From: Patiria pectinifera
Lineage: Eukaryota > Echinodermata > Asteroidea > Valvatida > Asterinidae
Reading direction: 5' to 3'
Length of the DNA stretch: 64,000 nt
NCBI GenBank assembly: GCA_029964075.1
Contig: CM057134.1
Coordinates: 19,570,905 to 19,634,904 of the forward strand
How positions within the stretch are numbered: the stretch's first letter is position 1; every line of letters begins with the position of its first letter. A model generated the notes under the pieces. That model worked only from the letters and a program-made list of their open reading frames with translations. It had not been told where the DNA came from and ran no database searches. The position numbers and the translations under genes were made by a program. Positions 943-63,943 of this stretch are shown here, in pieces.

Positions 943-21396
<20,454 letters not shown>

Positions 21397-28400: not shown

Positions 28401-31400
28401 AGGATGTAGGACTGCCTGAGCACCAGGGGCGCCGGGGGCGGGTCGACCGACGAAAACACAGTGCTGCAAAGAAAAAAGGCAGTCATGATGGCGTAACAAT
28501 TCCTGTTAATTGCGGACAGAAGATGACATGTTTTTACCACTTTCAAAAGCTCCAGTGGGCAGGACATAACGCATGCGCTTTACTTGAAGGGGCCCAGGCA
28601 ATGCAGTTTTTTTTTAATGCTATCCTTGAAAATGCAACTTTGTGTCCCATTTAACCTTATTTTTTATTTTAATAACCTTATTGGGAATGTTGGGAATGGA
28701 ATCAATACAACGACTTACCTGTTTTTCTGGACTTTTCCTTCATACAGCTCCAACACTGTCATCTCATGACGTCTATGTCTGGAGTTCCAATAATGATACT
28801 ACAAAGGGGAGATTCCAAAGGTTACTCATTTTCACATCTGCTGGATAGTATGGCTGTTCCAAATACACTGAAAATCGGAACGTCTGGTCATCAACCAAAT
28901 ATCCGAATAGCGTTCCTTTTTATTTGAATATTTGAAAAATGTGAGTGGTCTTCAAAAGATGATGAAAAACGTCCATGATGGTCTTCTAATCACTTAACCC
29001 TCCAATGCAAACATGCATTATGCACCAGGTTGTCCTTTCAGTCAAAATCATTCAAGTGACTGTTTTCAACCCGTAAGAATTCCCAGCCCACATATAAAAG
29101 CAGGATTGACTGGCTGGGACTATTAAAGTGACTTGATACAGCTATGCTTTGACTCCAGGTGAGTGATAAAACAGCTGTGACCACAACTTGCCTGCTTTGT
29201 ATGTTCGTGGTCTGTTGACTGAATTTGACTAGTCAGAGTGCTTGTCTGACATATAATCTGCCTGTTGGTGACTAGCCTGTGTAAAAGGCATGGCAGGGGA
29301 AGAGGATGGACTTTTTGACTGTCTGTGACTGCTTAAATAGCAGGAGGGTGAATAAGCTCTTTGTCGATTTTCAGTAATCGCAAGTGCATGCAAATCCGGA
29401 TCGGCGACCAGTTAAGACTGGCGCACGTTAAACTTGATCAGCGCATTTCGAATATTTGAATAATTGATTAAGTCCAAGTTAGAAAAATTGAGTATTCAAT
29501 TATTCAAAAAATGCACAGCCCTATACTGTATTGATATACACATACCAATAGACAAGTTGATTTTCACTTTGAACAGGCCATCAGTCAAACTTTGCCATAA
29601 ATGTACACAAGAAATTAACGTGAACGTTAACAATGACTTCAAAATAATCCTTAAAAAATGCTCATGCATGGTTTACAATGTTTAGACTATCAATAGAATT
29701 TATATATTTTACTACTTCTTCCAATCTCCCAATAAAACTCTAATTATATGACGATTTTTAGAACAAACTAAAAGGATTATGCAATTTTTTTTTAGAAATG
29801 GAGAACTCACCACGATCCAGTTTTCCGTGTGTACCAGGAACAGCGGACTGGAGGTCTTTTTGTGGTCGATGCTAAACACGATATGACCAGTCACTACGTC
29901 GATAAGATACACACTCACATGGCCTGCGAAGGATGAAACAACAAAACATCACAAATATTTTTAATTTTGCAATAAAGCTACTTATAAAAAGACAAAAACT
30001 CCCAAGTTCAATGTTGTACCTTTTGCCGAGGTGTCCTGCCCTTCAGTAACCACGGCGACCAAGTTGGGGTTGAGGTATTTGTACAGGACGGAGCGATCGC
30101 CAAGGACGCGACCCTGTGAGTGAACGTGCTCTGTAGAAACGGAAAATGGAAAACAAGATTCAGAGAGTTTAATAGCTTCGTGCGTGAACAACAGGGGGCG
30201 CTCTTCATTCAAATGATGGAGAAAATGCCACTTAAATTTTGATGATTTATTCACATTCACTAATCAATGCTTTCTTGAGAAAGTTGAACGATACCTCGCA
30301 TAAAATATCCAGAATTAGTCGCAGACAAATTATCCCGCAATAGCTTCACAGCATTAGGTAAAAGTGGCAGAATTTTTAACACAAGGTTCCCAGCACTTTA
30401 TGAAAACAGAATTCCCTGAATTTTCCCTGATATTTCCCTTAGAAATTTCTAAAAATCCACGAGAAATATTTTCACTTCTATAACGAGGTTGGAAGTCAAG
30501 AGGTGGTTGCAGCAAAGCAACTAAGATAGTAATAACATGCACACTGCATGAACACTTAATAACCAGTTAGTCAATGGTCACAGCTTGGACACAACTTGGA
30601 CACACTAGAAAAATAAAATTACAGCACCCAAGACACGATTTAACAAAGATATTTTACGCCTCAATCCTAATATTAACCTAAATTTCCTAAAAAAATATAC
30701 CTGTATGCTTCTTTCCTTGCAGTTTAACGATGCCTCTATCTGTAGCCGGTAACCGTACATTCCAAACCACGTCAGCCGATATAGATTCCGATCCCTGTCC
30801 AGTTGAAGCTAACCGGTACCCTTGTAAGGCGTTATCGGAGCGGTTAGCGGTGAAGAGATATATGGTTGATGCACGGGCCTGCAGGATACCAGTTGCTTGC
30901 TCAGGAAAAATGTGCACCTGTAGGAAACCAGCCAATTGTAACATTTGTAACATGTGAGGACGTTCAGGCGAGGGCCAGTAGTCGACAAAAGGTCAGTTTG
31001 CGACGGAACTTACGTCTGCACACTAATAGCGATGTGCGAACATCTCTTATCAAACGATGGTTTAAACGTCACGACATGAAACTTTTTGGTCCTGGTGCCC
31101 TGCTGCGCTTTATGATGCGTGCGGCTATTGGTCACCAGTGATTGAACCCTGCCCCATGGCCCAATTCCAAATAGTCGACTGGCGTTGTCCGAGCATCCTT
31201 AGTTCAAGCAAAGTAAGCCCAACTATGGTTAACTGTGGTCCAATGGTTACCGTGTTCGACTCGTGTGCCGTGGTACGTGGGTTCGTATCCTGACGGGGAA
31301 CATGGGGCTTGTGTTCTTGGGCAAGACACTTTACTACAATTGCCTCACTCCGCCCAGAAGTATCAACGGGTATCTGTGAAGGTAGAGACCAGAATGCACT

Positions 31401-34400
31401 GATCTCGAGCTGCTGCAAAAACTGGTCTCATGGCCTGATGAACAGGGGTAATAATTGTGGAGCGCTTTGCGACGTTTTGTGTTCTTGGGCAAGACACTTT
31501 ACTACAATTGCCTCTCTCCACCCAGGAGTATAAATGGGTACCTGTGAAGGTAGAGACCAGAATGCGCTGATCTCGAGCTGCTGCAAAAACTGGTCTCATT
31601 ACTTGATGAACAGGGGTAATAATTGTGAAGCGCTTTGCGACGTTTTGTGTTCTTGGGCAATACACTTTACTACAATTGCATCTTTCCACCTAGGAGTATA
31701 AATGGGTACCTGTGAAGGTAGAGACCAGAATGCGCTGATCTCGAGCTGCTGCAAAAACTGGCCTCATGGCCTGATGAACACGGGTAATAATTGTGAAGCG
31801 CTTTGCGACCTTTGGTATAACGCGCTATAGAAGCACCACATTAGTATTAGTATTATTAACATACAGGGTGGTCCAAAGAAAATTAACACTGTTTCAGATG
31901 CTGATTTGTTGGAATTGGGGAGACATGTTGAAATCGTTTCAAGATATTCCTAAACTACAGGATCTTTGTGGTATATGGTGAAAACGGCGCTGAAAATAAA
32001 GCCTAAATTGAGAAATGGTGATGGTTTAAAGGAAGATGGTCAAAAACCAGTTTGTCCACACGCAAGTCTATGAAATATGGTCAACACAATAGCACTGCAC
32101 ATACAAAGAACTGCAATAATCCTAATTAGGTCTACATGACCGCCACTAACGTGGACAAACTAGTTTTTGACCATTCTTCTGTAAATGGCCGCTATTTCTT
32201 AACTTCAGCTTTATTTCCAACGCCGTTTTCACTTACATACCACCAAGATCTTGTAGTTTAGGAATATCTTAAAACAATTCAACATGTCTCTTCAATTTTG
32301 AGAAATCTGCTTCAGAAAAAGTGTTAACTTTGACCACCCTGTAATCCGTGCCCGAATTAATTTCTTAAATTGATGAAGCCTACCTTGTTATCTGTGTCCA
32401 GTAGAACCACAATCTTCAGTTCTTGTTCGTCCGTCAGCGCCAGCATACTGGCCTGCTTGGCTCGGTAAGGCAAGACGTGGCTTATATCCTCGGCATTCAC
32501 AGGGTCAAAGGCATCGCCGGTTATTGGGTTGAAGGAATACATTAATGTATTGCCAGATACCTGAAATCAATAGTTTAAAATTACTAGGGTCAGTGTTAAG
32601 TTGCTGTACAGGGTGAGTAGAAAAAAACGAAACCCAAATGTCGGGACTATTGTTTCAGTGAAGTTCTGCATGTAGCACTTTGAAAATCTAGGATATGAAC
32701 GCCAAATCTATAAGCTTTCTTTTAGTACAAGAATCAATCAAATCACTTATATACTTTTCAAGTTACGTAATTTTAAACACAACCACCGTTTTAAAGTTCT
32801 GTCCACGGATCACAAAAAAGGTGTGCCCTCTTTCAGCAAAACGAAAACAATTCACACACGTCCCTATGCGATTTGTTTTCGTTTTGCTGAAAGAACACGG
32901 AACTTTTTTGTGATCCGTGGACAGAACCTTAAAACGATGGTTGTGTTTAAAATTCCGTAACTTGAAAAGTACATAAGTGATTTGAATGATTCTTGTACTA
33001 CAACAAAGTTTATGAATTGGGCTTTCATATCCTAGATTTTGAAAGTGCTACATGCAGAACTTCACTAAAACAAGAGTCCCGACATATTGCATATTTCCTT
33101 TAGAGGAACAGCTGCACATGTTCCACTTTAATAAAGGTAATAAACACCATTTGCGTTTGCTGTAATTTTCAGAAATGGATGGATTTAGGGGGGGTTTAGT
33201 ATTTTATAGCAAATACTGTTACACTGACCTCTTTAAAGGTTTGTGTTCATAGATGCTGGAAAAACCAAGACAAAAATGCTGCTCTTGTAGTCTGGTTCCC
33301 GGACCCTTCTTCAGACCAAACTGATCAATTTATAGACATCAGGAATTGTGAGGTCAGGGAATCAGACTAGCTGGCCTGCACCCGTTCACAGATGTGTACG
33401 CGATTGTGTACCCATAAGCTGCACTTTGGCAGTTGAAAAAGAACAGCGTTTTTCGTGAGTTTTACCAGCACCAATGGACACAAAACATTGAACAGCTCAG
33501 TGGAATGATGTCTGCTATAATTAAAAAGCCCTTTCGGTCCATTTCATGAAATTACGACAAATACAAATGATCCTATATGCCTTCAACTTCAAGCCCCACG
33601 TAAAGTCATGATAAGCAATTACAAGTTACATTATCCGTAATTGATTATTGGTCAATACCCTGTCGATACCGATGACAGTGCAATGCGGTGGATGAGGGAA
33701 GTGAGCTGTAGTCCTTCGTACAAACAGCAAGACCTGGCTATGGCCAGGGATAGTTGGGCTCTTGAGTCTGGCTAGGTAGGTACTCCAGACTAACGACCCA
33801 TCTTCAGAATCTAGACCGAAGATCTGAAGAAAACAAACCAGAAAATAAAAACAAGTCAAACAATTGAAAAGTGAAATAAATGAAAACAAAGACCTATTCT
33901 GGTCTGAAAAAAGACTGAAATTTGCAATTCAACGGATTTTTCAGTGTATTATAAAAAAATACTGCAAGTAAAACTTGCCCGATCCCCTGGCATCCTGCCA
34001 GTTTGTAGTCATGTACATGTACAGGCAGTTAGTAAGGACAGTTTTCAGTGAGGGCCTTGATTGTCCACCCCGCGGGTACCAGTTCTCAGTTGAATGGGGA
34101 GTTTGGGTTGGATGGAGAGTTTGGGTGAGACACCGCACTAACATATGTTAGAGTCATAATAGTAATACTGAGCTGAGCTCTCCAGAGACCTCGTAAATAT
34201 CCATATTGGAAAGGATTTTTTGGGATGTCAGCCTTCTCTCCACAGACCACTTTTCAAGTTTGGTTGAGATTGATTACTGAACTTCACAGTGAAATGGAAC
34301 ACACACACACCCTGACACCCACTCTTGTTTTACTATACTCCCAAGGACAATGCTTTGTGTTTCCCTTTGTCCCTGTTATTTAACACTCTCCCATAGACTA

Positions 34401-37400: not shown

Positions 37401-40400
37401 GCTGGTTTGAAACCATCTTCAATAATTGGGTTTTTTTGAGAACGATACCATTTCAGGCAGAATAAGTTCACAAGGTATTTGATACCGGTCCTATCCTCAC
37501 TATGAGAAAGGTTTCTGTAATTTAACCAGTTCGCGCCGGGATTATTTTGACATTGACCGGACCCAGGTGTGGGATTGTTTTTCACGAACCTCGATGCCAG
37601 ATGGGTTCAGGCCGTCATCTGCGGGTAGCACACCCTGATATTTCCGGCCTCGCTCGCTGCGAGCGGGTCGCTGACAGATATTTCCGGCCTCGCTCATTGC
37701 GTGTTTATCAGTCATCCATTCTGAATACCGCAAAATCTTTGTGTGTATACACGTCATCCGACGTAAACTGCTTAATCCTTAGGTACTTTTCAGGGTTAGT
37801 GCAAATGATCCGACGTGATTTCAGAGGGTACATACTGTTGTTGATGGGAGCCAGCTAGCTGTAGTGACGATTGCATTGCCGTCCAGGGTGGAACCAGTTA
37901 TCTGCCATACCTTGAACAAAGCAGAAAAAAATAGAACGTCAGCAAGAATATGTCAGCAAAAACGGAACCAAACATGTCAATATCTCTTCAAAACCAGTTT
38001 CGTTAAATCGTTCAAGCAAAATAATAATAGCATGTAACCTGTATTCCTATTTTTCAATGGGCAAATTAAATAGCTGCAAACCTTTGCTTTTGTTTGTTTT
38101 TATTATTAACCACATTAACCCTAACAGAACTCAACCCACCCAACCCCAACAGCATGTTTTGTTGTAATCTGTTGGGATGGGTACAGTACCCCTAAACTGA
38201 CAGTCTTTTGCATTGGGTTGGCACACCTCCAGAATCAAAGTCAGAAATATGTGTGTGCAGTATCCCATATGGTGTTGGAATTTGCCAGGATGGGTATGGT
38301 TCCTAGTGAATCATGCTAGGGAGTTAGGGTTAATATCCGATTTAAGCAAAGCACGGTAATTGATAAGTTGGTGGCCTAAGGTAGAACATGAGCTATACAG
38401 TTTTGAATGATATTGTGAGCAGTTTAACTCGCTGAATGATTACACAGAAAGTTTGAAGTTATCTTTTCTTGTGTTTCTGTTACAGATTTAATCTTGACAG
38501 TCACTGGTTCCTGAGAAATAAACTTTAAAAATGGGGGGAAAAATGGAAACATTTATCAAATGAAAAAATTGAACAAACGAACTCAAAAATGGCAACATTG
38601 TCCCTTGAGAGGTTGTGCCGAGTCTGTTTCTGATCCTGGGGCAAATTTCACGGCGTTGCTAAGCACAAAAATTTGCTTAGCACAAAATAAGCAGGTTACC
38701 AGCCAAAACTCCATGTGATGTATATTGCTTGTGATTAGTATTCAGCTGTTGTTTGCTAAGCATTAAAATCACATGGAGTTTAGGCTGGTAACCTGCTTTT
38801 ATAAGCCAGACTTTTTGAGCTAAGCAGCAAATTTTTGAGCTTAGCAGCACTGTGAAATTGGCCCCAGGTCCACGCAGCTTCAGGATCCAATGAGCTGATA
38901 ATATAAACTTACCGATGGTAAATCCTTGACGAGTGTCACCTGACCGGCGGACATCTTGAGTAGAGCGTGATGGTCCTCAGTCAACTGAAGAGCAAACTCC
39001 ACCCTCCCAGACGACGGAGCAAAGAGCTGAATCAAGGTTGGGTTGGGACCGTGTTTGTCCAGGCCAATGGTCTGCAATAAAATAGTCATTAGGAAAAAGA
39101 ACTCAGCAGAGTCAGTCACAAGTCATAACAAGTCATTCACAAGTCATCACAAGTCATCACAAGTCCATCACAAGTCATCACATGTCATCACAAGTCCATC
39201 ACAAGGCAATATAAAGTCACCACAAGTCATAATAAGTCACATTTCAGACGAGTTGCAACAGAGTCAGTCACAAGTCAAAAGTCATCACAAATCACTACAA
39301 CCACAAGTCATCAAAAGTCAATCATAAGACATCATAAGACATCACAAGACATCACAAGTCATCATAAGTCATCACCAGTCAACACAAGTTAACACAAGTC
39401 ATTGTAAGTCCATCACTTGTCGCAAATCATCACAAATCATCACAAGGCAATCAAAAGTCATCACAAGTCAACATAAGTCATCACAAATCATCACAAGTCA
39501 TCACAAAAATCACAAATCATCACAAGTCATCACAAATCATCATAAATCATCACAAGTCATCACAAATCATCACAAGTCACTTAAGTTCATCACAAATCAT
39601 CATAAATCACCACAGTTATAAAACAAAATCCTTGCTAGTCAGCACAAGTCATCAAACGATTTTGTCAAACATTTTTGCTCCAAAATTTGAAAAACAAATT
39701 TCTGTTCTTTACATTATGCTTGAAATTGAAAATGTTTGCAGAAATCATTTAATTCTCCAATGTTTTGTATCTTTTTTAATGCTCTCTAGTGGGATTTTCA
39801 GAGAGCTGAATTTCGTTTAAAAGCTGAATTCCGTTTAAAAGCTGAATTCTGTTAAATCCATTCCGTTTTCCGTGAAACAAAAACTTCAGTTGCCCAATTT
39901 AATTCAGGGGAGGGGAGCACAGAGAAGATAACAGCCAAAACGACGTTGGATACGAGACGCACCTTTAACGGCGTGGTGGAAAACACGTTGATGTTCTCCA
40001 GCGAAGCAACTTGCAAGGAGTTGGTGAGGGTATCCACACACACAAACTGGAGCGTGGATACCAGTATGCAACTGGTGTCCTGCAGACTAGCCCAGGCTGC
40101 TTGAAGAGATGCCTGCGAAGGGAAATATATGACATATACTTATATTTCATATGAAATAATTTATATATCACATGATTTTCCAGAAAATGCAACGAAAATA
40201 AATGCATTGTGCGTTCAAAGCGCTTTGTAGTGATCGCCATCTTGATTTTTCATTTTCGGCATTTTGTGTCGTCATCGTCATTTTATCCCAAAAGTTACAA
40301 AAATAAATATCAAAACCCTGCCCTCTTTCCACAACTTTCCTGTTGGATTTCAACATCGGTACTTAATGGGTTGAACCTAATAAATGGATTTTCTTTCTCC

Positions 40401-48600: not shown

Positions 48601-51600
48601 GATGCATGAAAAGACTTTTGGTAAATAGCCATTCTGAATCAATTGAATATAATTTTTGTGCACTCTAGGACCAGGCCCAATTTCATGGAGCTGCTAGCAC
48701 AAAAATTTGCTTAGCACAAAATAGTCCGGGCTTATAAAAGCTGGTTACCAGCCAAAACTCCATGCGATTTTCATGCTCAGCAAACAGCGGCTGAATACCA
48801 ATCACAAGCAATATACATCACGTGTAAATTTGGTTGGTAATCCTGTTTTTGCCAAGGAAGACTTTTCATGCTAAGCATGTTTATGTGCTTAGCAGGTCCA
48901 TGAAATTGGTCTAAGCTTTACTAGGCTTACTGTGTCGTGTTTAATGGTGCATTTGGAATAATGCGATGCACAAGTTGAATGTTTCATTAACATTCTGTTT
49001 TAAATGTGCAAAGTTTAGTTAATTTTGTGAACATTCCTTCTTCTTTTTAGTGAGAAATCACAAGGCCAACCACAAACGGAATCCAGCCCTACAGAGGAGA
49101 CAACAGATCGTCTTAGAGAGGATGACGAAGACAGTGACTTTGAAGACTTTGACGACTCTGACGAAGAGAAAGATCCATCGACCATCCAAATCATCCAGAG
49201 ATCTAAAGTACACCACCCGCCTCCCAATGAAGCTGCTCGTCAGTTCCTGCAGAACCAGTTGTATGGCTCAAGAATACCGCGAGAATCCAGTAAGTGTCTC
49301 TTTTTAATTTGCTGCCGAACAATGGACCCTCCCAGCTCGTCAATCAAACAAAGCACATTGACCAATCAGATTCAAACGTTTGGTCAGGTGACCAAGGTAG
49401 ATTGTTAAAACTCGGTCAGTCGGGGAACGTTTGTTTCGGTGCGGATTTAAATGCTTGTAACCAGTAACGTGCTTTAACAAACAAAACTGCGCCCAATTTG
49501 GATCTCAAGTCGCGTGAGAAGGCAAAAGTAAACATAGCGACAGTTAATGTTGCACGTCGTTTTGTTAGTCAGCATTTTGAATCTTGTGCTGATCCACCTC
49601 TCGGGAAGGATCTCTGAGATCCGTGATCTGGACTCGAGCGAAACACAGGAACGGATCCTGGATCGAGATCAGGATCCTAGCAAAACAAACAAACAGATCC
49701 TGCATCCAGATTAGGATCCAAGCAAAACAAACCAACAGATCCTGCATCCGGATCGAGATTCGAGCAAAACAAACAGATCCCACATCCAGATCAGGATCTG
49801 AGCAAAACAAACAAACAGATCCCACATCCCAAGCAGGATCCAAGCAAAACAAACAAATAGATCCTGAATCCAGATCTGGATCCAAGCAAAACAAACGAAC
49901 AGATCCTGGATCTGGATCCGGATCCGAGCAAAACAAACAGATCCCACATCCAGATCAGGATCTGAGCAAAACAAACAAACAGATCCCACATCCCAAGCAG
50001 GATCCAAGCAAAACAAACAAACTGATCCAGCATCCAGATCATGATCTGAGCAAAGCAAACAAACAGATCCCGCATCCAGATCAGGATCCGAGCAAAACAA
50101 ACACACAGATCCCGCATCCAGATTAGGATCCAAGCAAAACAAACGAACAGATTCTGCATCCAGATCAGGATCCAAGCAAAACAAACAAACTGATCTCGGA
50201 TCCAGATCAGGATCCAAGCAAAACAAACAAACAGATTGTGCATCCAGATCTGGATGTGTGCGAAACAAACTGGCCCTAGCACAGCAAGAAATGTACACAA
50301 ACCAAGAATTTGGCAAGAATTATGGCCAAATTGGGAAAAGTCAATTCACTTTTAACATCCAAAATCCCTGAAAATTCTACTCCAAGGATAAGTTAAAGGT
50401 AAAGGGGACGAACCTGTGTTCACAGGAACGGAGTGCCCATCTCTCTTTCGAAGCGATTGGGCCAGACTCAATATAATGCTGCTGCTGTGGGGGGATCGCC
50501 ACACCTCCTCCACAGCGAGTCTGTTACCTTCCCAGCATTGAATAATGCCGGTACCCATTTAACACCTGGGTTGAGAGGAGTAATTGAGGTAAAGCGTCTT
50601 ACTCAAGGGCACAACATGCATGGCCACGGCGGGGCTCGAACCCACAATCCCAATCATGGGGCCTGTGCTCTTACCGCTAGACCACACGTGCCCGTAGGAT
50701 AACTTGATTATAAAAATTCAGATTGGATGCATCAATGTCAATATAATAGAACTGTAGTCCTGTAGAGTAGCCATGTGTTTTTAAAGTAATGAAGGGAATA
50801 AGTACAGGTTTCTTTGGAAGTTTTGCAGTTTACTAGGGGGATCTTCTTATTTTTTCAGTGACGAAGAACGTTTCAAGAAAACTGAAGAGATTAGGAAAGC
50901 CGGGCATGAACTTCCATCATCAGAAATCACTCGGTAAGTTTGAAAGCAATCAGTAGGCATGTAGATGTTTGCGATAACTTTCTTCAAAGAAGATTGTGGT
51001 AATAGTAGGAATTATGAATGTATTCATGAAGAAGTTAATGACTGATCTTTGGAAAAAAATACATTGAAACAAAACGAGACAAGCCTAGAAAAGCTGGTCC
51101 CAGAGTGCACAAAATTCTATTAAATCGATTCCGAATGGCTATTCACTGGCAGTCTTTTCATGCATCTGGTCTAAACAATGGGCTGATTTAGCACATTCAT
51201 TGGTATTGTGGGGTAATCATATTTCAAACTTTTTGGCCAGTGTAAGACTTAAAGGTACAGTCCATCATTTGTAATTTGTGCTTTCTGTTCGTTTGAAGCA
51301 ACAAAAGTGCTCAAAATCAGCTGTATATTTCAAGAAATATACAGCATTCTAGGATCTTGATTTCAAATCAAAAGTTGCTGAATCATGTTATGAATTGGGC
51401 CTGAATTCAGCATCCGAGACACGTTTTCACTGAGCCGATTGCAGCTACGTGATGTCAGGCACCGATCCGACGAATTATAGCAATCGCGTGCGCGTTGTGC
51501 CAACGCTTGCGTGCGCTTCCCCGAGTTAAAAAAAAACAAACTACTGACGGAAATTTCCAACAATGCATCTTCAGACGCACCGTTGGAAAGGCCTTCTTTC

Positions 51601-54285: not shown

Positions 54286-54291
54286 TTTATT
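54286..54291 (-). terminator. Candidate polyadenylation signal of long Schlafen gene
   Basis: AATAAA on the minus strand, 44 bases past the stop codon. Confidence 0.5.
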
Positions 54292-54334: not shown

Positions 54335-57300
54335 TCATTCATTGACGTAATACTTTTGGACTGTTTCAAGCAAATTCTTGTCAGTACACATATTGAGCAC
54401 AAGATCGGCACCAACGCTGAGGAATTCTAGCTTGGTTCGTGCCCTAGATGCCAGGGCTAAGACGTAGGTCTTCATCGTGTACTTCTGGAGAGTGCCTTCA
54501 TTTGGCATTATGCCAATAACCACCTGGTTCTCCCGGCCAGCGAAACTTTCTAAACCCTCAATGCGCACGCACTGGCCGCGTGCAGGCACTTCATGCGTTC
54601 CGTGAATGGCGTGGACGTTCGGAAGAAGATGGAAAATGATCAGCCTGTAGACGCCAGCATGCTGGACATCGATGATACGGAAGATGTGCTCGGGAACTGT
54701 TACAGGTCCCAGAAGGAACTCGGAAACTGCGTACAACATCTGGAGATTTGTCCCCTTGGTTTCTCCGTACCCCAAGAGCCTCACTTTACGATCTACCAGA
54801 ATACCTATCTCTGATGGAACCCCCGAGACAGGTCGACCACTCTGTACAAAATTCTTGTAGAGTTCGCACAGATATTGCCACTTTTCTTCAAACATGCATA
54901 CAACTGTGTTTCTGACGGGTGCATCATATCTGCCTTTGTCAGAACAAATTCGACCCAGGAAGAGAGGGGGTGTGGCCGTGTCCTCTCCAAAGCAAGAGTC
55001 TGCCAGACTGATCTGAAAGGTGGCGCCTTGATCCGAAAGCAGCTCTTTGGTCAGGAGGCAAAAGAACAGCACAGCATGAAGCACCTGGGGACCAGGCACG
55101 CCATTGTCCTCAATGCCACCTTCTTTCAACTGTTCATGTATGTCTCGGTACAACCTCATGCATTCCTTTTGCACAGGGGTCGTCATGAGGCTGCTCAGTG
55201 ATGTTCTGTCGTCATCTACATCGTGCCGAATGAGTGTAATCTCACCAGGACTGTATCCCATGTTCGTGTACTTTTCTACAGTCGCTCTCAGCGATTCGGG
55301 CGACAACGGCGTGGCCCTCATCACCGGCCGTTCACCCTTGAAATCGTGCGCCGTCGTGGGCAACACGCCGTAACACTCGGTGGAGACGAACTTTTGAAAG
55401 AAGTCAGTTATCTCCTCGGAATTTCGTATCACAACGTTTAGCGTCACAGTTTTACCGTTGGACTCACCCATGAACTCCCTTAAAGTCTGGTAGTAGTGTG
55501 ATTGCTCGAGGCTCTGCGATTCGTCAGAGATGACCACCATCCTGCATTCTGGCTTCTTTCTTAGCCAGATACACAGACACTCCAGCCAGTCGATTTGGAA
55601 GCACTTAAAAAACGTGTTATCTATTTCTCGCACAGCCACACGCATGTCCGTGGTTAGATTCCTAGTGTCTTCCTCCACGTTGCTAGGAGGAACATCTCTC
55701 TTGTTCAGTAAGTTTTGTGTGTCGTCTAAGATGAGATATTTGGCGGATTCGGGCAACGTTCCATCTTTAATCTTCCACACAATGTCGTCGAATGCAACCG
55801 AGAGACATATTTTCTCCCCACAAAGAGTTGAGCTCTTTGGAAAAACCAATTCTCTAAAAGATAACGACAAATATACAGAGTCTGAATTATAATGTATGGT
55901 ATTGCGACATAACTTTTGGTTTACAGGGCAATTAATGAAAAGTACACAGTTTGATGTATGGATCTACAGGACCTGCATTAACTTTTGTTCAAAATTATGT
56001 CAGAAAGCATCTATATGTGAAAGACAATGTACCTATATGAATCTGTTCTTGGATACCCACTTATTAGAGAAGGATGCCTACCTCACGTAGTTGGCCATCT
56101 GTACATTCGACGGTATGTACAAGATCTGCTCTACTTCAGCCCCACCGAGACGGAGGCGCTTGGCTCTCTCGATGCCAATGACTGTTTTCCCAGTACCTGG
56201 ATAGCCCTGGATGTACACATGAGGAACCTCATTGCACAAAGTCAGAGCTTGGAGCTGAGATGGAGTCAAGAGGTTCATCACCTGGACTCCCATCAGGTCC
56301 CGCATGTACAAATAGGTCTCCGGCGTGAACGACGCCACGGCGACAACGAGGGCGCTGACTAAGGATTGCAGCTTCTTGAAGTACATTTGGTGATAGCTCG
56401 CTGGCTTGTTCGCCGGTGTGTGGCACCGGATGCTCTCGATAATGCCGGGAATACAGTCAGGGTCCGTCTCCAAATCAAGGCAGCAGCTCTTGACGAAGAA
56501 ACGGCCTTCTCCGCCGTGCCTTGTGAGACATTCTTCAAGCTCCGTGGACGCCTTCTCGGAGTATTCCTGCAAACCTATTCCTGCTGACCCTACGGTCACC
56601 AGAAAAGGAGTGTCTGTTTCTGTGAAGACTAAGATGTCGCACATGACCTCTTTGGCGCATTCAGGTCTGTGAATGCCAATGTCGGCCAGTATACATTGCG
56701 ACACAACACATACTCCCTTGGTACCTGCGAACCTGTCTTTCAAGGCAGTGGTGATGTTCTGGAGTACGCTAGTCCCAGTGTGAGACACCAAACTGATATA
56801 GTTCTCCGGCCAAATGTGTAGGCCTTCCTTTACTGTGAAAAAAAAACACAGTGCGGAAAACAAATTATTGGATTGATTTGCCCGGCCGCAATTTTTTTGG
56901 TTTCCTGCACCATCGTTCAGTCGCTATACTCATTACAAGCACGCGTATAACCATTGGTTTTCGGACTTTGCTTCCCTTTAAAAAAATATCCAAATCCATG
57001 TCAAAAAGAAAATGTGAAACTTATTCAAGAGAGTAGTTGAATTTATTTCCACAAAAAAATATGTAATTTGAAAAAAGAAAAAGAAAACAAAATGGGTCAC
57101 AAGAGCAGTCCGACAATACATGTACAGCGATTTCAAATGCTTCTAAAATTATCTGCAATCACCATAATATTTACTACAACCACGTGATGCTTTCACGCAT
57201 GCGTGTTATGTTTGTTATGCTTGAGAGTTAGGAGTGCGCTTTTACCAAATTAAGTCGCATCATCATATTTTGCAATATATAGCAATCAATCACTGGATGA

Positions 57301-59198
57301 GTATGGGTTATTGTGTAGGGCAGTTCCGCTACCTCAAATTAATGGTTATTTCTGTTGTATTTTTAATTCTACTTCAAAAGTATCTCATGATAAATGCCTT
57401 AAAAATAACCTTTCATCTTCCAAAATGCACTTACTTGGAAACATTCGTTCTCGTATGTCCCTGTGTGAGCTTTTCAAAGCAAACACTTTGCACCCGCCAG
57501 ATATGTGAGTGCTCAGCATTTCAAACTTCTCTCGCATTTCGTCACTTCGCCGTTGCTCTGTTCAAGAAACACAACGATTAAGATGATGACTGGGAAGTGT
57601 CGAGTCAACCAGGCAGCTGGCAGTTTTATATTCCACAATCATTTAACGTTTCTAGAATAATTCAAACGTTTACTCTAAGCTTACAATATTGTTTCTGTAG
57701 AATTTGATGGCATTAAAGGGTTTGGAGTAGGCCTATATTACTTTTTTTGAGTTTTTCTTATCTCAAAAGAAAATTAATATTGATCGATGCATTCTGCCGC
57801 ATCATTACAATGGTAATAATTGATTATATCAAGCGTTGTAATGTGTACAAGTTTTAAAACTCGACTCGCAACTTCACAATGACCAAACGGACATGCAATT
57901 GTTTGTTGTAAGTTGTGCTTGGGTTAGAGTTTAAACGCTTGTAAACGTTTAGTGCAAATATTTACATCGCTGGATACACTTTTCCAGAATTTTAATGACG
58001 ACGTTGTTGATGATACAGTAGTTATGAAAATATATAGGAAACAGTATGTATGACAGAAATGTTTGTATTTGTTATTCAAAACCGTAAAATATGTACAACA
58101 GATATGTTGTAACAACATACCTGCTATCTTGTCTCTCAACATGGCTTCCACCCACTCATGAAATTTCATCTTCCTTATCACCCTCTTCCCCTTATCATCG
58201 ACTCCAAAGGTATATGATTCAGGCTCCTTCTGAAATACTCCTCCACAAAACGGGTTGATTCGAACCTCGACAAGATGCAAGTCTCCTTCCAGAGAATGGA
58301 AATAGACATCCCAGTGCTTCCCTCGAATTGGTTGCTCATTTAATCTCCCCCATGTTTTCCGCTTGGCACAGCAATCAAGACATCGCTCGATTTCTGTCTT
58401 AGCTTGATCAGAGATCACCTGGCCGACAACTTCACACTGATTGTCTTCCACACCTATGATGACCCAGCCGCCTTCCTGATTTGCAAAGGCGCCAAAGTAA
58501 TCAGAAACATGCTTTTCAATGTTAGTCGCCAGCGCATTCCCGTCCTTCAGCTTCTTGTATTGGACCGTCTTGGATTCAGGTATCCTGACAATATCCCCCT
58601 TTTTGAGGTCCAACAGTCCAGGAAAATGATGTCTGCTGCTCTGGGAATTGTCATCGACAGCCGAAGCGGCCCCACTTGGCAACTCCGGAGCCTCAGCTTT
58701 CGGTAAGTGATCATCGAAGTCAAAGAAGGGACGAGTCGCTGTGCTGTCCTCCTCTCTCAATAAGATGGCTTCCACCTGGTGGTAATCTTGTACAAGCTCC
58801 GTGCTTGTGTCTGTTGGCAAGCGAAGGTTGTAGTTCACGGTGGCTGGTCGGCGGCTTGGAGTGATGTAACAGTACAGAAACTCAGCATCAGCAGGCTGAC
58901 TGCAGAAATCAAAGCATTCCCCCCATTGAGGAGGTCTGATGTTCTTCAGGAGTTCCTGCTCGATTTGCTTCCTCCATTCGTCCAGATGTTTCTGCTCTAC
59001 ATCCGGATGATCTCGGTGCACATTCCTCAATGTGATGACTTCCCTGTGGTCTGAGTTGAGCGCAGCGCACACCAAGCGCACAATCTCTCCACTCTCCAGT
59101 TTCCTCTGTGCTACTCCATCTTTTGTTTTCGTCACGGAATTCATGATATGAATATTCATGGTGCTTTCCTCACCAGTAAACTTGTCCGCAGAAGCCAT
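54335..59198 (-). CDS. Long Schlafen protein with helicase-like C-terminus (group III type)
   Basis: Coding exons: 58121-59198, 57435-57557, 56082-56832, 54335-55853, all GT-AG and in phase, 1156 residues. Schlafen core: N-lobe near 25-140 (EIVRLVCAALNS, DAEFLYCYITP) and AlbA_2 C-lobe near 200-360 (ESKTVQYK at 208-215, GAFANQEGGWVIIGVED to D252, RINPFCGGVF, EPESYTF, EWVEAML). The linker has SQCILADI (445-452) where vertebrates have SWAVDL, followed by VMCDILVFTETDTPFLVT. Helicase part: LMGVQVMNLLTPSQ, Walker A GYPGTGKT (610-617), Walker B ILDDTQ (692-697), VVIRN (791-795), GYSPGEITLI, LESFAGRENQVVIGI and LALASRARTKLEF (1116-1128). These match vertebrate SLFN11-type proteins in order. Unusual: Gln213 where the second catalytic Glu is expected, and roughly 170-180 extra residues between 865 and 1079. 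Nucleic-acid binding is expected from the family; nuclease activity is doubtful. Confidence 0.9.
55854..56081 (-). other. Schlafen intron 3 (no gene)
   Basis: Intron of 228 bp (donor gtaggc at 56076-56081, acceptor ttttag at 55854) separating Walker A exon from Walker B exon. Nothing else seen. Confidence 0.7.
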
Positions 59199-59252
59199 GT
59201 TACACCACACACGCTCAGTCAGGATTGGCAGATCGAAACCAAAACAGGATCT
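59199..59252 (-). other. 5'UTR of long Schlafen gene, starting at a splice acceptor
   Basis: The first coding exon extends upstream to 59252, just after a pyrimidine-rich tttttcttcag acceptor. A non-coding leader exon therefore probably lies further up in the spacer. The ATG at 59198 was chosen because the only in-frame upstream candidate (59208-59210) is GTG. Confidence 0.55.
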
Positions 59253-62150: not shown

Positions 62151-63943
62151 ATGGCTCGCAAGCCAACTGAAATCGCTACCGAGGTACATATCATTGGGAA
62201 GAAAGAAGACATTAATAGAGAAGTAGAAGACATTCCGAAGATCATCAGCGCCATCTCAAATTTTCAGAGACGTGGAACGATCAAAATGAAAAACCTTCAA
62301 CATCGTGAACACTTGACGGCAAAACAGCTTGATCAGTGGAAGAATATTATCTGTCAAAAGGCTCTGAGACTCCTTCCCCAGGAATGGAGTATATTTGAAT
62401 TCTGTAGCAACGCACAAGACGCAGAATACCTTTACTGTCACGTGACACCGGCTCCTAGGCCAATCACTGTTGAGTATAAGCTTCACGTGCCGTCAGTTTC
62501 CGGTACACGAGTTGTGAGGGACTTTGATGGGGCTCTGGCTGTTCTGTTACGCACTGCGGACGACACATGGCCAGGGCGGGGAGCTAAGTCACCAGCCGAC
62601 AAAGACTATGCCTCTGTGGATGGTAGTTCTGCCTCCTCTGAGGCCGACTCGACCGAACCGGCGGAACCAACTATTAGACTAAGACTGACTGGAGTTAATG
62701 CACAGGGCAAAGGAAAAGGTAAAGACGTGCCTCACGAAGATAGGCAGTTAACAGAGATCATTGAAGGCGCGATATCAAATCACATCAGCGCTCTGGCAAA
62801 TAAAAATGGAGGTAGCATCATGATCGAAGATGCGGACAGTGTCTGCCAGATAGTTGATGGGAGGATTGGTGTGAAGGACCAAGACTCCATCGCAAAGTGT
62901 CTTGAAGAATGTTGCAAGAAGAAGATCTGGGGTAGGGAGAGAGTACCCCCCAAGAGAGGAGAGCAGTGGGATGTCTGCTTCCCAATCGTTAATCAAGATA
63001 ACATCGTTCTCACTATCCGTGTGGATGTTTTCTACGGTGGAGTCTTCGAGGAGGAACCAGTCGCTTATACTCTAAAACAAAATGCCGACGACTCATATGA
63101 AGTAATCAGGATGGCGTTTGGAGACTGGTACGAGGCAATGGTGAAACAACACGTAGAAAGTAAGACACATTAAGTGAACCAAAAAATATCTAAGTTCAGT
63201 GTACAGTTGTGAAATATTTTCGGTAATGAACGGATTTAAACGTGAGAAGTGACAATTTGAGAACAAGATAGGAGGGAGATTGTAAAGACATTGATAGACA
63301 TTAGGCAAGGAAGACACTGAGAAAATGAAAGGATGCAAAAAAAAAGAGGGAGAAAAAAATAGCGAGAATTTTGGTAGAGTGAAGAAGTGCCCGAAGTTTC
63401 GCACAAACCATCCCAAAAATCGATCTAACCATTCTTCATTTTTGCTGAACCTTGGCCAAATTCGTTCTTCATTATACAAAGTTCAAGTGAAAAAACCTCA
63501 GTTTTCTTTGGTTGATTATTTAAGTTACTATTTGTGATTGAGATGCTTAAAGTTTGACAAAACATGAGAGTTCCTAAAAGAAAGATGGAAAAGTTGTACT
63601 TGTTCATTTACTACAAAAAAGTAGTACTACGGATTTTGTTTGGCTTAAGAAATACAGAAACAGCTATAAGCTCAGACAATAATGATCTATTGAGTATGAA
63701 CTATGCGGAACCGCCCATCCTGACTCCACCCCTAAAAAGGGGACATTTTTTTATGTTTATTTCAAATCTTTACCTTATGCTTTAACTTTTCATGTTCTTA
63801 TAGAAGAGCAAGATTACAATGACACAGAGAAGAGGCTTGAAGAGATCAAGGGGAGAGGTTCCAATCCACACTGCGTATCCTATGACAACACATCGTCCGA
63901 GCCGCATCTACTACCGACGGCTCAAGGAGGCTCCTTCGAATGA
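62151..63943 (+). CDS. Short Schlafen-like protein, core only, nuclease site degenerate
   Basis: Two coding exons (62151-63159 and 63804-63943, GT-AG, in phase) give 382 residues ending QGGSFE. It is a paralogue of the long Schlafen. FEFCSNAQDAEYLYCHVTP parallels FDFCSQPADAEFLYCYITP; SNHISALANKNGGSIMI parallels SDYFGAFANQEGGWVII; YGGVFEEEPVAYT and FGDWYEAMV parallel CGGVFQKEPESYT and FHEWVEAML. The ES-x4-E/Q-Y/F-K stretch holding the catalytic acids is replaced by a Gly/Lys run (QGKGKGKDVPH), and the PFC cysteine is missing. The helicase part is absent. A family-typical nuclease seems unlikely; RNA binding or a regulatory partner role is possible but unproven. The exon begins at 62121 after a cccatcag acceptor, so a leader exon is likely. 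Confidence 0.82.
63160..63803 (+). other. Intron of short Schlafen-like gene
   Basis: Intron of 644 bp between GTAAGA at 63160 and cttatag at 63797-63803. AT-rich, no repeat or gene recognised. Read-through would end at a TAA right after the donor (peptide ...VESKTH). Confidence 0.6.

Follow-up and report, generated by a model that had tools for sequence, protein, structure and literature searches.

A predicted long Schlafen gene with a substituted nuclease site in the echinoderm Patiria pectinifera

We analysed a 64,000-nucleotide stretch of the Patiria pectinifera genome (contig C6:19570905-19634904; "the window") and found a four-exon gene on its minus strand, at 54335-59198, whose predicted product of 1156 amino acids (aa) is almost certainly a long Schlafen homologue. 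The protein combines a Schlafen core, a linker and a P-loop helicase domain, and one of the three residues that SLFN11 needs for RNA cleavage is replaced in its nuclease site. As a whole, we consider it likely that this is a genuine echinoderm long Schlafen, built by a fusion that predates vertebrates, and that it works as a non-cleaving nucleic-acid binder in the manner of SLFN5. The gene is a divergent variant within the known Schlafens, useful for dating and for polarity, and not a new system.

Gene model and domain order

The exons of the spliced gene model join at GT donors and AG acceptors in compatible phases (1/1/2), giving 1156 codons without a stop. The gene comprises the following features:

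58121-59198, minus strand: exon 1, with the start codon and the Schlafen core, aa 1-359 (gene model; phmmer match to SLFN11; PF04326 match); its N-lobe spans approximately aa 30-190 and its C-lobe AlbA_2 domain aa 208-321
57435-57557, minus strand: exon 2, a 41-codon bridge from core to linker (GT-AG, phases 1/1; unbroken SLFN11 alignment at its joins)
56082-56832, minus strand: exon 3, the linker and the helicase N-lobe with Walker A (gene model, phmmer, Pfam)
54335-55853, minus strand: exon 4, the remaining helicase domain and the stop codon, aa 651-1156 (gene model; PF09848 match over aa 606-806)
54286-54291, minus strand: AATAAA poly(A) signal, 44 nucleotides past the stop

In a phmmer search of PDB chains, the spliced protein matched SLFN11 best (E=4.4e-30) in a co-linear alignment over aa 30-653, followed by SLFN5 (E=5.2e-26) and SLFN14 (E=4.2e-20). 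Lower-scoring matches were SLFN12, core-only SLFN11 and SLFN5 chains and a further chain with the label Schlafen 8. Schlafens made up 14 of the 15 PDB sequences matched at E<=10, and the last one (E=1.3) was unrelated. Both domain borders, core-linker and linker-helicase, and the three exon joins lie within the SLFN11 alignment, which stops at aa 653, just past the third join. This unbroken similarity through both domain borders makes an independent fusion of core and helicase unlikely. Searched alone, the helicase half retrieved four sequences at E<=10, all of them SLFN11 or SLFN5 (best E=1.6e-4). The sequence-only reading of this locus had proposed a complete long Schlafen gene at 54335-59252, with a two-lobed core, a SWAVDL-region equivalent and a P-loop NTPase ordered as in vertebrate group III Schlafens. 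The open four-exon model, the Schlafen matches in the PDB and the co-linear SLFN11 alignment bear out both the completeness and the order. The frames within that span are real exons in the model, but the ATG taken as the start lies at 59198, and the upper end given there, 59252, is upstream of it.

Schlafens are defined by core homology that includes the AlbA_2 domain, and here Pfam SLFN_AlbA_2 (PF04326) scores 37.7 bits against a cut-off of 25.3, alongside the SLFN11 match. Two hallmarks of group III are also present: the order core, linker and superfamily 1 (SF1) helicase in one protein, seen in the SLFN11 alignment and the predicted four-exon model, and the Walker A and B motifs of a helicase half that matches SLFN11. 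The exon 3 linker holds an SLFN GTPase-like region (aa 438-512), the PxSY part of the YPxSY motif and, at the place aligned to SWAVDL, the sequence CILADI. An equivalent of the SWAVDL region, as the earlier reading had claimed, is thus present by alignment, but CILADI fits only two of the six positions of the consensus S-W-(A/S)-(V/G/L)-D-(L/I/V) (PMC8875196; this and all other articles given by PMC number are cited from excerpts). We therefore call the protein group III-like and not a strict group III member.

Nuclease site and helicase half

The functional motifs of the protein lie at the following positions:

58554-58580, minus strand: nuclease active-site strand PESKTVQYK, aa 207-215 (alignment rows)
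56183-56206, minus strand: Walker A GYPGTGKT, aa 610-617 (phmmer alignment, alignment rows)
55715-55735, minus strand: Walker B LILDDTQ, aa 691-697 (alignment rows)
55418-55435, minus strand: motif IV-like VVIRNS, aa 791-796 (position from the alignment)
54581-55387, minus strand: aa 807-1075, which from the match positions probably holds most of the 200-220 residues that are extra relative to PF09848 and SLFN11
54437-54556, minus strand: from the motif V-like GLESFAGRE (aa 1084) to the motif VI-like LASRAR (aa 1118)

Cleavage by SLFN11 needs each of E209, E214 and K216, and members that lack one of these are endonuclease-deficient (PMC9482658); in SLFN13, E205A or E210A removes all activity (PMC5862951). 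The three SLFN11 residues align to E208, Q213 and K215 of the Patiria protein, so that two of the three essential RNase residues are retained, and D252 is retained as well. Two other AlbA_2 loci of the same genome keep the E-x4-E-F-K pattern typical of RNase-competent sites (L001, ETRILEFK; L004, ENRNVEFK), which suggests that the change in the long gene is a loss; an ancestral active site that later decayed in this gene is plausible. Judged from the alignment, cleavage has probably been lost in the long Schlafen, a reading we hold somewhat more firmly than its opposite. The CCCH zinc finger is largely gone: the H and C of HxC align to R and N, and CC aligns to CG, leaving one of four ligands (ligands taken from PMC8789055 and PMC9482658).

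All the helicase motifs quoted in the sequence-only reading are present (GYPGTGKT at 610, LILDDTQ at 691, VVIRNS at 791 and LASRAR at 1118), and VVIRNS is motif IV-like in SF1 terms. The best helicase model for the gene in Pfam is PF09848, SLFN-g3_helicase. Walker A and LASRAR are separated by 508 residues (610 to 1118) compared with approximately 286 in SLFN11, a difference of approximately 220. Positions 4-174 of the 354 in PF09848 cover aa 606-806 (201 residues); the other 180 profile positions have 350 residues to account for, and similarity to SLFN11 resumes, very weakly, only at aa 1076; most of the excess therefore follows the motif IV-like VVIRN. The motif V-VI stretch aligns very weakly, at 0.6 bits, to SLFN11 chain residues 873-922. 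Walker B ends in D (DD), as it does in SLFN5, a protein that binds ATP and in published assays neither hydrolyses it nor cuts tRNA (PMC8789055).

Compared with human SLFN5, a group III member, the Patiria protein shares the domain order, 27.5% identity over 338 columns of aa 206-565, the Walker B ending and the absence of one residue needed for tRNA cleavage (PMC8789055, PMC9482658). The two differ in that the CCCH zinc finger, SWAVDL and the equivalent of E214 are all conserved in SLFN5, whose chain stops at residue 891 (PMC8789055), whereas the Patiria protein lacks SWAVDL, retains only one of four zinc ligands, has Q in place of E214 and runs to 1156 aa. Human SLFN11, also of group III, is the best and co-linear match, yet the Patiria protein departs from it by the Q at E214, by four changed contacts among the five alignable ones to single-stranded DNA (ssDNA), and by the longer distance from Walker A to the LASRA motif.

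Descent, the core-only neighbour and rival explanations

Over aa 206-565 the Patiria protein is about equally distant from three human paralogues: 26.8% identical to SLFN11 (91/340 columns), 27.5% to SLFN5 (93/338) and 26.9% to SLFN14 (90/335). In the same columns, which are those aligned to the Patiria protein in rows from HMMER alignments and cover three human proteins only, the pairwise identities of SLFN11, SLFN5 and SLFN14 are 48.2%, 40.6% and 37.1%. At the second catalytic Glu the SLFN14 chain carries A, presumably a construct mutation. This equal distance fits a branch outside the SLFN11, SLFN5 and SLFN14 paralogues, as far as an identity comparison can place it. Three tektin exons of the same genome were also compared. 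One exon is identical to chain 8snb_8D at 142 of 191 positions and scores 333 bits against 154 for the best other chain; in the part shared with that chain (7rro tektin-4), 112 versus 74 of 138 positions are identical. A second exon scores 241 bits to 8snb versus 141 to the best other chain. The 8snb chains are from sea urchin, and by these two exons the genome looks like that of an echinoderm and unlike a vertebrate's, a hemichordate being a less likely host. COX1 was looked for in the assembly and not found. We infer vertical descent of the long gene, and its sequence suggests that the fusion of core, linker and SF1 helicase had already happened in the ancestor that echinoderms share with vertebrates. 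The earlier proposal of a full-length, pre-vertebrate fusion in an invertebrate is in this way supported, for one genome, by the unbroken SLFN11 similarity.

Next to the long gene lies a second Schlafen gene:

62151-63173, plus strand: core-only Schlafen paralogue of 340 aa in one open frame, lying head-to-head with the long gene at a distance of 2.95 kb

This paralogue shares 35% identity with the core of the long gene; the catalytic strand falls in an alignment gap and is not recognisable. Its AlbA_2 score of 18 bits lies below the 25.3-bit cut-off, its best match to any solved Schlafen has E=0.72, and a tblastn search of the 8.4 kb that follow it (locus L011) showed no linker or helicase exon. 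On these matches it is a degenerate, core-only gene. In having a core without linker or helicase it resembles mouse Slfn1 and Slfn2 of group I, Slfn2 having only one of the three residues proposed to be catalytic (PMC8789055); given its identity to the local long gene and its E value to solved Schlafens, we claim no orthology. The two neighbours possibly share a control region. In a PADLOC scan, the core frames of both genes gave no match and the exon 4 frame gave three weak UvrD-type matches (E 0.0023-0.016).

Several observations weigh against a long Schlafen that binds without cutting. Although AlbA_2 is above its cut-off, the profile search proposed with the earlier reading succeeded only in part: PF09848 reaches 23.8 bits against a cut-off of 24, and SLFN_GTPase-like 20.2 against 27. 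PF09848 is also not specific by itself, as it gives 21.7 bits to a ZNFX1 helicase from elsewhere in this genome, which scores far higher with AAA_11 and AAA_12; an exon-by-exon genome search with PF09848 gave ten matches, and the long gene, in which an intron interrupts the matching region, was not among the matches listed. Past aa 653 hardly any similarity to solved Schlafens is left, with 0.6 bits for motifs V-VI. Structure predictions were unusable, with a predicted local distance difference test (pLDDT) score of 32.9 for the core (two-row alignment) and 34.5 for exon 4 (single sequence). A third tektin exon scores 191 bits to vertebrate tektin-3 versus 124 to the best 8snb chain; its urchin counterpart is probably missing from the comparison set, since 8snb has only three tektin sequences. 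The argument for lost cleavage turns on one substitution. Of five alignable ssDNA contacts of SLFN11 (PMC9482658), N633 is kept and Q634, S853, R855 and R856 are changed, the last three being compared within the 0.6-bit alignment stretch. Functions hinted at earlier, virus restriction and blocking of replication forks, are thus not simply transferable to a protein that has changed at one of three essential RNase residues and at most of the zinc ligands (three of four) and alignable ssDNA contacts (four of five).

Among the alternatives, we think it unlikely, but worth keeping in view, that the protein is a still-active RNase whose altered site binds metal with the help of Gln213 or another acid, for example the retained D252. 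E208, K215 and D252 are all in place, SLFN11 D252A slightly raised activity (PMC9482658), and the site tolerates variation, with SLFN11 needing Mn and SLFN13 assayed with Mg (PMC9482658, PMC5862951). Cleavage is nonetheless abolished by E214A in SLFN11 (PMC9482658) and by E210A in SLFN13 (PMC5862951), and the Patiria protein has mostly lost a zinc finger whose ligand mutants made SLFN13 insoluble (PMC5862951). A decaying gene would also be expected to lose its catalytic, zinc and SWAVDL residues, yet the 1156 codons are open, the splice sites, Walker A, Walker B and SF1-like motifs are intact, and the composition is coding-like (GC 0.495 in coding sequence versus 0.335 in introns), which makes decay highly improbable.

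The core-only paralogue next door, and the predicted nature of the exon joins, would allow that a core-only Schlafen and a separate linker-helicase gene were wrongly joined; a phase-matched 41-codon exon connects the two parts and the SLFN11 homology runs on over the joins, and we regard such an error as very unlikely. Vertebrate contamination or recent horizontal transfer, which a review's description of Schlafens as a vertebrate family (PMC9256597) might favour, appears least credible of all. The gene sits inside a 24.2-Mb contig, with introns and an adjacent diverged paralogue, and its near-equal distance to the three human paralogues counts against a source in one of their lineages. Scans of viral contigs with the whole protein, the exon 4 frame and the core, and of prokaryote contigs with the core only, found no relative, in searches that reach mainly close relatives.

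A bolder interpretation, which we consider quite doubtful, takes the long and core-only genes as a divergently transcribed, nuclease-dead pair acting as a binding or decoy module with a 2B-like unwinding subdomain. In SF1A helicases subdomain 2B sits in the interval after motif IV. The extra 200-220 residues, mostly in the motif IV-V interval, would then form a 2B-like subdomain absent from SLFN11 and capable of true strand unwinding; SLFN11 is without subdomains 1B and 2B (PMC9482658). We favour a non-cleaving single protein, in which the horseshoe core would grip nucleic acid, tRNA-like or other, without cutting it, since a Gln stands in place of the second metal-binding Glu. The P-loop helicase domain would bind ATP and probably engage nucleic acid, so that the protein may act by binding, shielding or blocking nucleic acid in innate defence or genome maintenance.

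Other loci and significance

The genome searched comprises 613.5 Mb in 1020 contigs, and the family counts are lower bounds, as only the best candidates were scored. Three further AlbA_2 loci lie elsewhere (L001, L003 and L004; two on C4 and one on C13). With SLFNL1-type single-AlbA_2 proteins they and the long gene have the AlbA_2 domain in common, and presumably these loci are SLFNL1-like, their AlbA_2 domain being what is established. When the genome was searched with the whole protein, no other long Schlafen appeared among the best candidates, and the one match listed for SLFN_GTPase-like was the long gene itself, which is apparently single-copy.

Nine of the ten PF09848 matches fall at C13:3.73 Mb, C13:7.03-7.15 Mb and C4:13.53-13.55 Mb (L018-L021); of these nine, eight sit in open frames 1791-2405 aa long and the ninth in a frame of 563 aa. 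The L018 frame carries a ZNFX1 domain with AAA_11 and AAA_12, and the four loci may reflect local expansion of ZNFX1-like RNA helicases. Elsewhere in the window we observed a tRNA match (3898-3970, plus strand; Rfam, 37.7 bits) and an open frame at 9646-10122 (minus strand) with an Ion_trans match below threshold (21 versus 25 bits). Tandem arrays occupy 1123-1564, 20696-21256, 31309-31813, 39110-39614 and 49650-50270, and long open frames of repetitive sequence run through those near 1.1, 39.1 and 49.7 kb.

Several invertebrates have Schlafen-like proteins according to automated database annotation. Published accounts, as excerpted, range from Schlafens as a vertebrate family (PMC9256597), found outside mammals only in frog and cartilaginous fish (PMC8875196), to an origin early in metazoan evolution, stated without detail (PMC9729291). 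Schlafen transcripts have been named in mussel (PMC7772429), bacterial Schlafen RNases occur in defence loci (PMC12839542), and one article mentions that the Schlafen domain has an antiviral role in metazoans (PMC3710099); another deals with mouse Slfn4 only (PMC11842673). In the literature searched we found no description of a Patiria long Schlafen gene.

A complete echinoderm long form would date the fusion of core, linker and helicase to before the split between echinoderms and vertebrates. The vertebrate interferon system is younger than that split, and the fusion would therefore also precede it. The gene provides an outgroup for asking which activity came first in the family, RNA cutting or nucleic-acid binding. 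With its changed RNA-cutting site and mostly lost zinc finger, the long form may depend on binding, not on cutting, for its activity.

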